Positions 17,844 through 19,308 of a stretch of DNA of 43,445 nucleotides are shown piece by piece (position 1 is the first letter of the stretch; every line of letters starts with the position of its first letter). Source of the stretch: an uncultured Bacteroidaceae bacterium. GTDB taxonomy: Bacteria; Bacteroidota; Bacteroidia; Bacteroidales; Bacteroidaceae. A model generated the notes under the pieces. The model was given only the letters and a program-made list of their open reading frames with translations. It did no database searches and was not told the DNA's origin. The stretch is from assembly GCA_905233285.1 (NCBI GenBank), contig CAJODY010000029.1, positions 1 to 43,445 of the forward strand, read 5' to 3'. Both the position numbers and the translations under genes were made by a program.

Positions 17844-18003
17844 GGAAGGATGGGTGAGTGGCTGAAACCACCAGTTTGCTAAACTGACGTACGGGTTACC
17901 GTACCGGGGGTTCGAATCCAAGTCCCTAGAGGGGGATGAGAACCCCAGGGTTCGTCATCGCTTGTGCTTTCGAGCTTGCCGAGAAAGAATCCCCCTCCTT
18001 CCG
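17844..18003 (+). tRNA. tRNA-Ser (anticodon GCT) interrupted by a 73-nt insertion in the T arm
   Basis: Acceptor GGAAGGA (17844-17850) pairs perfectly with TCCTTCC (17996-18002), followed by G and CA. Anticodon loop TTGCTAA (76-82 of 178xx) gives GCT at 17878-17880. The long variable arm is a perfect 6-bp hairpin (GTACGG at 17889-17894 with CCGTAC at 17899-17904), as expected for class II serine tRNA. The T stem GGGGG (17906-17910) and T loop TTCGAAT (17911-17917) are normal, but the matching CCCCC is not next: it appears at 17991-17995 after 73 extra bases. Removing them gives an 87-nt tRNA with fully paired acceptor and T stems. Without the insertion it would be ordinary; with it, the gene is either a pseudogene, a tRNA with a giant T loop, or an intron-bearing tRNA. 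Confidence 0.85.
17918..17990 (+). other. 73-nt structured insertion inside the tRNA-Ser T arm
   Basis: The insertion lies between GAATCC copies (17914-17919 and 17987-17992), so its exact ends are ambiguous by up to six bases and resemble a target duplication. It can fold into three hairpins: ATCC/CCC with GGG/GGAT (17916-17937, 4-base bulge); GATGAGAACC with GGTTC-G-TCATC (17935-17959, 10 bp around a CCAG loop); and GCT-TTCG-AGC (17966-17975, UUCG-type tetraloop). It is far too short for a group I or II intron and has no ORF of note. Bulge-helix-bulge geometry was not evident at the junctions. Confidence 0.7.
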
Positions 18004-18018
18004 CACCCTTTATTACTT

Positions 18019-18091
18019 GGCGGGTTCGTCTATCGGTTCAGGACACATGCCTCTCACGCATGAAAGATGGGTTCGATTCCCATACCCGCTA
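18019..18091 (+). tRNA. tRNA-Glu (anticodon CTC)
   Basis: Acceptor GGCGGGT (18019-18025) pairs with ACCCGCT (18084-18090; first pair G-U), anticodon stem CATGC/GCATG encloses CTCTCAC (anticodon CTC), and the T arm ATGGG-TTCGATT-CCCAT is perfect. It begins 15 bases after the tRNA-Ser end, so the two are likely one transcript. CTC reads GAG; a TTC isoacceptor must lie elsewhere. CCA is not fully encoded (ACT follows). Confidence 0.95.
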
Positions 18092-18096
18092 CTGAA

Positions 18097-18184: not shown

Positions 18185-18215
18185 GAGTAAATTCTTGATT
18201 ATCTCATATCTTCTC

Positions 18216-18309
18216 CTTACATTTGTATCGAAAACGAAATAATCGCATCCTTACATTTGTATCGAAAACGAAATAAACGTGTTCTTACATTTGTATCGAA
18301 AACGAAATG
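18216..18309 (+). repeat. Three tandem 34-bp repeats, each with a promoter -7 box, ending at the patatin start codon
   Basis: Copies start at 18216, 18250 and 18284 with an exact period of 34. The first 25 bases are identical, running CTTACATTTG, then TATCGAAAACG, then AAAT; the last 8-9 bases differ. Each holds TACATTTG, a perfect TAnnTTTG. In copy three AAATGA supplies the ATG of the next gene (18307), where copies one and two have AAATAA. The repeats therefore look like a promoter/start cassette that has been duplicated. Confidence 0.9.
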
Positions 18310-19308
18310 AAGTATATGTTTTTCAGTAATCCGTTCAGTAATCTGTTTAGTAATCTGTTCTGTCGCAATAGGAAAGAGGAGCTGAAGGATAATCAGAAAG
18401 CTAATCCGAATGCTCAGCCGGAAGCTCTGCCGAAACCGAAGGATGTAGCTTTGGTGCTCTCAAGTGGTGGTGCCAGGGGATTGGCGCATATCGGTGCCAT
18501 CGAGGAGCTTGAAGCTCGCGGCTACCATATCCGTTCCATTGCCGGCTGCTCGATGGGTGCCCTCATCGGCGGTGTATATGCAGCAGGAAAAATGAATGAG
18601 TTCCGTGAATGGATGAAAACGGTCAACCGCAAGAAGATGTTCGAACTGACTGACTTTTCTTTCTCTTTCAGCCATATCGTCAAGGGTGAGCGCATCATAC
18701 GAGCCATCAAGGAGTTCGTACCTGACGTGCCCATTGAATCCCTCCCCATACCTTACTGTGCCGTAGCTACTGAACTGAAAACCGGAGAGGAGATAATCAT
18801 CGACCACGGCAGCCTCTTCGATGCCATACGTGCCAGCATATCAATCCCTTCGTTCTATCAGCCTGTACAGCATGACGATATGATTCTCATTGACGGAGGC
18901 ATCATAAATCCTTTTCCTCTCAACCGTGTAGCACGGCAGTCGGGTGACATCCTTGTAGGTGTCGATGTCAGCGGCTGCGACTATAAAACCCTTTGGGAAG
19001 AGAACCACCATCATACTTGGAAACACAAAGGCAGTCCTTCGCTCAAAGACAGAATACTAGACAAGCTGATACCCGATACACTGGACTATAACTACTACAC
19101 AATGTTCACACGTAGCAGTTCGCTTATGATACGTCAGAACTCCATTCTCATGGCGCAGCTCATGCATCCCGACATACTCGTAGATGTAGAAATGGGCCGC
19201 TACGGCATCTTCGATTTCTACCGTTCAGAAGAGATTATTGCAGTAGGGCGTCAGACTGCTGCCGAAGCCATCACACGCTTCGAGTCAAATCCATCCACAT
19301 CTACATAA
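18307..19308 (+). CDS. Patatin-like phospholipase (RssA type)
   Basis: 333 residues. The Ser-Asp dyad of patatin lipases is present: oxyanion loop SSGGARG (52-58), nucleophile elbow GCSMG (80-84, Ser82) and DGG (196-198, Asp196). The N-terminal 45 residues are low-complexity and basic with a duplicated FSNLFSNLF element; an alternative start at Met4 would shorten it only slightly. There is no clear signal peptide, so it is probably cytoplasmic and acts on membrane acyl lipids; substrate unknown. Its 3' 58 bases overlap the convergent GH43 gene, so the last ~19 codons are read on both strands. It sits behind three tandem promoter-like repeats. Confidence 0.93.
   Translation: MKYMFFSNPFSNLFSNLFCRNRKEELKDNQKANPNAQPEALPKPKDVALVLSSGGARGLAHIGAIEELEARGYHIRSIAGCSMGALIGGVYAAGKMNEFREWMKTVNRKKMFELTDFSFSFSHIVKGERIIRAIKEFVPDVPIESLPIPYCAVATELKTGEEIIIDHGSLFDAIRASISIPSFYQPVQHDDMILIDGGIINPFPLNRVARQSGDILVGVDVSGCDYKTLWEENHHHTWKHKGSPSLKDRILDKLIPDTLDYNYYTMFTRSSSLMIRQNSILMAQLMHPDILVDVEMGRYGIFDFYRSEEIIAVGRQTAAEAITRFESNPSTST

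Follow-up and report, generated by a model that had tools for sequence, protein, structure and literature searches.

The 3′ ends of tRNA genes are classical integration sites, and the T-arm introns of archaeal and red-algal tRNAs are taken out by splicing. At the tyrT/tyrV locus of Escherichia coli K-12, the rtT repeats form part of an array ordered as tRNA-Tyr, spacer, GGAAGGATGAGAAGCTTCG..AAGGTTCG..hairpins..TAATCCTTCCCCCACCACCA, which is also the order of the family of units described here. Elements resembling rtT are reported to be part of BIMEs (PMC2965389), and Rfam RtT relatives have been reported close to tRNA genes of Actinobacillus (PMC4986893).

The window analyzed here is a stretch of 43,445 nucleotides from an uncultured Bacteroidaceae bacterium (contig CAJODY010000029.1 of assembly GCA_905233285.1), in which an earlier note had described a tRNA-Ser(GCT) interrupted by 73 nt between GAATCC direct repeats. 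That description, with its coordinates, is confirmed (Table 1).

The interrupted tRNA-Ser(GCT) gene

Table 1. Features of the split tRNA-Ser(GCT) locus, in window positions
Feature	Position	Strand	Basis
tRNA-Ser(GCT) body, 5′ acceptor strand to T loop, ending GAATCC; counterpart of the genes called by ARAGORN in congeners	17844..17919	+	Sequence, Rfam, blast
First GAATCC direct repeat, within the tRNA T arm	17914..17919	+	Sequence
Insert of 73 nt, made up of a spacer remnant and the RtT-like element, with the second GAATCC at its end	17920..17992	+	
Extent of the RtT-like unit in the R2 match (39.3 bits)	17928..18000	+	
P1 5′ strand GAGGGGGAT, complementary to the distal T-stem/acceptor strand	17929..17937	+	Sequence, model
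P2 hairpin GAACCC/GGGTTC	17940..17953	+	
Second GAATCC, at which the distal tRNA 3′-end copy begins	17987..17992	+	Sequence
P1 3′ strand ATCCCCCTC, lying within the distal tRNA 3′ end	17989..17997	+	Sequence
Remainder of the distal tRNA-Ser(GCT) 3′-end copy (CCCTCCTTCCGCA), the sole one left here	17993..18005	+	Sequence
Intact tRNA-Glu(CTC)	18019..18092	+	ARAGORN

The split gene retains the acceptor 5′ strand GGAAGGA (17844–17850), the anticodon GCT, a variable arm and the T-stem 5′ strand GGGGG (17906–17910); 3′ of the insert come the remaining bases of the T-stem 3′ strand, then TCCTTCC (17996–18002), G at 18003 and CA, the locus ending in CCGCA at 18005. Up to the discriminator base the locus measures 160 nt, or 87 nt minus the insert, whose boundaries are ambiguous by 6 nt. 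ARAGORN makes no call on the split gene, its only call in the window being the neighboring tRNA-Glu(CTC), and the Rfam tRNA model scores the gene at 19.4 bits, under the gathering score of 29. In blast comparisons, query bases 1–84 of the locus are 100% identical to G001 and 95–100% identical to other congeners; the aligned stretch around the body is ~86% identical to G001 overall, with bases 1–84 identical. The body is not a chance match. As in the window, tRNA-Glu(CTC) lies 3′ of tRNA-Ser(GCT) in many relatives. Farther downstream, a tandem repeat (18214–18308; 34-bp period, 2.8 copies) lies just 5′ of an ORF (18307–19308) that by eye resembles a patatin-type lipase, and a second short repeat array (18322–18360) lies inside the start of this ORF.

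The earlier note had also called the insertion structured. Its minimum-energy fold does comprise three hairpins, but the stability of the fold is ordinary (z = −1.04, with 33 of 200 shuffles equally stable), so that energy alone does not support the term.

Relatives of the insert in the genus and beyond

The locus has a clear counterpart within the genus. Blast with the locus gave a long match to the tRNA (≥122 bits) in 31 of 36 congeneric relatives, with two long-match places only in G012, and the native tRNA-Ser(GCT) gene is thus usually single-copy in the genus. ARAGORN called tRNA-Ser(GCT) in 27 of 29 relatives’ loci (29 of the 31 matching genomes, G021 and G022 being left out), one call (L055) extending a few bases past the contig end; the remaining two loci (L057 and L058) stop with the contig in the T arm. 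The same insert, for which the earlier note had proposed a search in related genomes, was found in three congeners (G009, G004 and G011), where it stands after an intact tRNA: the order is intact tRNA-Ser(GCT), spacer, this element and then the tRNA 3′ end once more, with two such units in G009. The distance from TTCGAATCC to GATGAG is 24 bp in the window versus 43–45 bp in these three relatives, and the window therefore reads as an array minus its first 3′ end, the deficit of ~19–21 bp corresponding to the first 3′ end (13 nt) together with 6–8 bp of spacer. The CGA-linked units of the window’s own genome and of G001 are likewise short.

A model (R1) built from 14 units was searched in 45 genomes of the genus, among them the window’s own, with a cut-off of 40 bits; its helix CTTTC/GAAAG has both-side changes at two of five pairs, in five cells. 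Intact tRNA-Ser genes with the anticodons GCT, CGA, GGA and TGA lie upstream of 21 of the 26 matches. The other five are C100 of the own genome and a match in G030, which start inside the tRNA at the contig start; matches in G027 and G017, which have no upstream body; and the window, which alone among the 26 has a tRNA body on its contig and yet lacks that tRNA’s own 3′ end. A full or partial tRNA-Ser 3′ end follows the element in 24 of the 26 matches, some of these ends being imperfect (G021, G029 on C129, G067), and is absent in two (G010, G011 on C38). All 24 units with R1 scores of at least 47 bits sit either at tRNA-Ser genes or at tRNA-Ser 3′ ends that are orphaned or truncated by a contig boundary. 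Since strong congeneric units lie outside the tRNA, the insert bears no sign of being an intron. Its position and the clean 6-nt repeat would permit exact excision on paper, which speaks for a conventional T-loop intron of the group I/II self-splicing or bulge-helix-bulge endonuclease type, but relatives carry the insert sequence outside the tRNA and no intron family appears among the Rfam matches of the window at E ≤ 10, which are tRNA plus chance-level ones and likewise give no intron or ribozyme identity. Moreover, self-splicing introns need more than 73 nt, the ground on which the earlier note had already set self-splicing aside; of all the readings considered here, we give that of an intron the least credence.

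Across the family, matches at E ≤ 1e-6 occur in 21 of 399 genomes (own included) and 5 of 30 genera, not always at a tRNA (L114 of G013 lies away from one). ARAGORN called tRNA-Ser at each of ten loci from other genera, with the element visible after it in nine; in the tenth (L168), the tRNA ends at 1221 and the element match begins at 1276. A strict element pattern is uncommon in the phylum (8 of 395 genomes, own included; 12 matches versus 2 control matches), and seven of its ten non-own matches adjoin tRNAs (G465, G586, G699, G616), while three do not (G622, G437, G541). In some congeners (G030, G034, G061), the inner hairpin sequence TTATCGC..GCGCTTTC..GAAAGAA is dispersed away from tRNAs; this palindrome is possibly a source or a descendant of the inner part of the tRNA-linked unit.

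The pattern TTCGAATCCN{0,30}GGATGAGAACC, scanned over 84,980 species genomes, matched at least 115 stretches, and the matches listed come from both bacteria and archaea. Among these listed matches, 83 of 114 places have a sense tRNA just upstream (46 Ser, 9 Gln, 6 Glu, 6 Arg and 16 others), tRNA-Ser, with 46 of 83, being the commonest partner; GGTTC lies within 45 nt in 70 of the 83, and a copy of at least 10 nt of the local tRNA’s 3′ end lies downstream, in the stretch read, in 46. Some of the 31 listed places without a sense tRNA are tRNA-Glu anticodon loops read backwards or coding-like sequence, and others are cut or degenerate tRNAs with the element (e.g. L224, L272, L279), which means that the tRNA filter also discarded real cases. 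Archaeal records with a called tRNA among the matches listed include Thermoplasmata and Nanoarchaeota; as the records are mostly MAGs, single archaeal ones may be misbinned. The matches listed also include several Paenibacillus isolates, whose units have no 3′-end copy in the stretch read. Partial tRNAs with the 5′ half replaced or cut (L272, L279, L224) and orphan 3′ ends (L104, L110) were seen to adjoin RtT-like units, which suggests that such arrays are prone to rearrangement or misassembly.

The units are matched to the tRNA beside which they lie. The window’s closing stem GAGGGGGAT/ATCCCCCTC, of nine pairs by inspection, matches the T-stem/acceptor strand of the local tRNA. Over the 83 listed loci, the element’s 5′ flank pairs with the local tRNA 3′ strand with a mean extension of 2.241, versus 0.908 when permuted, and none of 2000 permutations was as high, kinship among loci being left in and a few of the 83 records looking like the same genomes as some congener or relative genomes. 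For the 37 non-Ser listed places the mean extension is 2.514 versus 0.678 permuted, again with none as high and with kinship left in. In several arrays (L079, L083, L161, L304) a hairpin that by eye is terminator-like intervenes between tRNA and element, which casts doubt on any general role for the element as an RNA linked to the tRNA transcript.

The relation to rtT was examined with two models. The Rfam RtT model (RF00391; gathering score 45 bits) has four matches in the E. coli locus (132.9–137.5 bits) but none in the window at E ≤ 10 and none in ten Prevotella-type loci scanned at E ≤ 1. In 16 other sources two matches reach the gathering score (L257, 46.0 bits; L231, 45.4 bits), and two Bacteroidota loci, L304 (35.1 bits) and L307 (29.7 bits), remain under it. 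Our model R2 was built from 27 of the 83 tRNA-linked listed places, without E. coli and without Prevotella-type units (the latter picked by eye), and also leaving out places where GGTTC was not within 14 nt, places with a 3′-end copy shorter than 10 nt and very long units; its rows include L231 and L257, both also detected by the Rfam RtT model, and the Bacteroidota record L193. In one search of 22 chosen sources (85,056 bases), R2 found the E. coli rtT repeats (four matches, 41.8–47 bits) and the window (39.3 bits, E 2.7e-7), whose unit has the GGAT/ATCC closing stem and the GAACC/GGTTC hairpin even though R2 was built without it. The E. coli match is an independent test, because the E. coli letters differ from the row-collecting pattern; the window match is not, because the R2 rows were gathered with a pattern from the window’s own family. 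At E ≤ 1e-4, R2 has matches in 7 of 40 congeneric genomes. In a shuffling control of R2 (control a), the double-change cells and the covariation score exceed the shuffles (0 of 500 as high), and the counts of pairs and of pair types do not (reached by 321 and 133 of 500, respectively).

Judged by its anatomy, and by the fact that a single covariance model finds both this unit and the E. coli tyrT/rtT repeats, the insert is an RtT-like tRNA-3′-end repeat unit, a palindromic element plus a copy of the tRNA’s own 3′ end. We name it RtT-like and do not file it under RF00391, because the Rfam model misses the window and the R2 match of the window is not independent. The anatomy of the unit also bears on a reading of the insert as the remnant of an integrated phage or island, the repeats being attL and attR of a since-deleted element. 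Direct repeats flank the insert, and a tRNA 3′ end is where integration would be expected, but the insert is a conserved unit that follows four kinds of tRNA-Ser in the genus and, elsewhere, other tRNAs; its flanks fit the tRNA beside it, and random remnants would not agree between loci; we hold this origin to be very improbable. A blastn search of 331 bp against phages, made for a phage origin of the insert, returned five records at 19–21% query cover, four of them matching the neighboring tRNA-Glu. An ordinary target duplication by a mobile element was likewise set aside: the copied stretch is the tRNA 3′ end, begins with (G)AATCC and can include the downstream hairpin. The earlier note’s alternative of a pseudogene or the scar of an element is thereby the closer of its two suggestions, with the difference that the element is an RtT-like unit that brings its own copy of the tRNA 3′ end.

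The fate of the split gene and a prophage-borne isoacceptor

A count of tRNAs with the GCT anticodon, proposed in the earlier note, yielded a second, intact one in the same genome. This tRNA-Ser(GCT), at C1:176984–177068, is intact by ARAGORN and divergent (47.9 bits), with an A-C apposition closing the anticodon stem. On C1, host genes are followed by tRNA-Lys (65990–66062), a tyrosine integrase (C1:66247–67419) and, past the integrase, phage genes for an endolysin, a reverse transcriptase, RecT and an S24 repressor; the end of the tRNA-Lys is repeated at ~C1:179111–179136 (27 columns, 89%), just before alaS, for which the match of 406 bits covers part of the gene. Because it lies between the tRNA-Lys with its integrase and the repeat with alaS, with phage genes between, the tRNA-Ser(GCT) of C1 is placed on an integrated prophage, which on this gene order is ~113 kb long (C1 about 66050–179136) and whose exact ends we infer. 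The prophage also carries its own tRNA-Met and tRNA-Lys, and its reverse transcriptase stands beside a 2209-aa protein in an arrangement that by eye resembles a diversity-generating system; outside the prophage, among the host genes of C1, a tRNA with the anticodon TCA (SeC type) is called by ARAGORN at C1:9344–9436. Records of Bacteroides phages carry a similar tRNA-Ser (75.8% identity over 26% of the query). AGY codons are about equally common in host and prophage ORFs (22.6 versus 23.7 per 1000, counted in mechanical ORFs of at least 200 aa, a sample only), so some tRNA must read them.

On balance we favor the view that an RtT-like array lost its first 3′ end, that the split gene yields no working tRNA, and that the prophage tRNA reads AGC and AGU. 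The starting state would have been an intact tRNA-Ser(GCT) followed by a spacer, an RtT-like element and the repeated tRNA 3′ end, from which ~19–21 bp, comprising the first 3′ end and some of the spacer, would have been lost inside the array, by deletion or by another exchange, a single sequence fitting both. With the first 3′ end missing, the tRNA body runs into the element, and only the repeat’s downstream 3′-end copy is left. The native gene would be inactive through this loss, and the prophage tRNA-Ser(GCT) could cover AGC and AGU; that the deletion is real in the cell, that the split gene is dead and that the prophage tRNA reads these codons are points that we infer. The presence of an intact tRNA of the same type on the prophage makes the split gene probably dead and not spliced. 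Evidence on the other side is that the tRNA body shows no decay, from which it follows that the loss is recent, that the gene is still used or that the split is an assembly error; cover by the prophage tRNA is in turn called into question by its A-C apposition and its score of only 47.9 bits.

That the gene is still used, the split transcript working with a giant T arm, an unknown step removing the insert or two pieces of RNA being rejoined, appears improbable in light of folding predictions and comparison. The undecayed body and the usually single-copy state of the native gene in the genus (a long match in 31 of 36 relatives, two places only in G012) speak for function, as does the pairing of the acceptor strand with the distal copy, which has a probability of 0.97–1.0 in the predicted ensemble, an energy model without tertiary contacts or modification. 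The same model, however, gives the T stem a probability of 0 with the distal strand, strong congeneric units lie outside the tRNA, and an intact GCT tRNA exists on the prophage; the element’s own P1 likewise has a predicted probability of 0 with the distal strand in the whole transcript. Less probable again is a specific form of this idea, in which the spare 3′ end of the array is put to use, the acceptor folding onto the distal copy to give a working tRNA-Ser(GCT) with the element in its T arm, removed or bridged. If true, RtT-like arrays would be a widespread back-up, matched spare 3′ ends beside tRNA genes in bacteria and archaea. The earlier note had reasoned that a sole AGC/AGU-reading tRNA would need such a removal step or a giant T loop, an argument weakened by the intact copy on the prophage and by the insert family lying normally 3′ of an intact tRNA-Ser.

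The main rival to the broken-gene reading is an assembly artefact: the real chromosome would have an intact tRNA-Ser(GCT) followed by an RtT-like unit, and the assembler, or a mixture of strains, would have dropped the first 3′ end at a repeat rich in hairpins. The own contigs break near tRNA-Ser genes (C100 starts inside tRNA-Ser(CGA), C5 ends 12 bp from tRNA-Ser(TGA), and tRNA-Ser(GGA) is within 300 bp of the start of C25), the contigs of G015 and G023 end in the T arm of tRNA-Ser(GCT) and those of G012 and G024 end in or at the same gene, and the lost stretch is by eye complementary to the following spacer in relatives. An intact native copy could also be missing because the genome is a 110-contig assembly, 89.89% complete. 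Against an artefact, the junction GAATCC|AAGTCCC is not shared between the repeat copies, and simple collapse over a shared k-mer would therefore not make it; in addition, a search of the own contigs with ARAGORN, models and blast found no intact native copy. We consider an artefact less likely than a broken gene, but with three other host tRNA-Ser loci at most 300 bp from contig ends and congeners breaking at the same place, the reading stays alive.

Comparison with known systems

The locus offers a natural example of an apparently broken tRNA gene that is normally single-copy, with an isoacceptor present on a prophage, and takeover of an essential host function by a prophage tRNA becomes a directly testable question. 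The intact tRNA-Ser(GCT) resembles other phage- and prophage-borne tRNA genes in being carried by a prophage, and would differ from them if it serves in place of a broken chromosomal gene.

As in the T-arm introns of archaeal and red-algal tRNAs, such as the tRNA-Ile of Cyanidioschyzon merolae (PMC9602550), the interruption lies in the T arm; unlike these, the window’s insert is a repeat unit, and relatives have it outside the tRNA. It shares with REP/BIME-type dispersed palindromes the occurrence of its inner hairpins away from tRNAs in some congeners, and is unlike them in that the 24 units scoring at least 47 bits with R1 are all at tRNA-Ser genes or tRNA-Ser 3′ ends. No description of RtT-like units matched to their tRNAs in different phyla came to light in a partial search of the literature, which could have missed one, and the occurrence of such units beside tRNAs in many bacterial groups and in archaea may be the more interesting result.

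The closest likeness is to the rtT repeats (RtT RNA, RF00391), and a puzzling ‘intron’ is thereby related to a class of repeats known from a single locus in E. coli. In both, the unit lies directly 3′ of a tRNA gene, occurs in several copies, has a GGATGAGAA..GGTTCG..AATCC core and closes with the tRNA 3′ end repeated. Unlike E. coli rtT, the window’s unit is about half as long, is tied to tRNA-Ser and is missed by the Rfam model, and the first 3′ end of the tRNA, intact in E. coli, is missing in the window.
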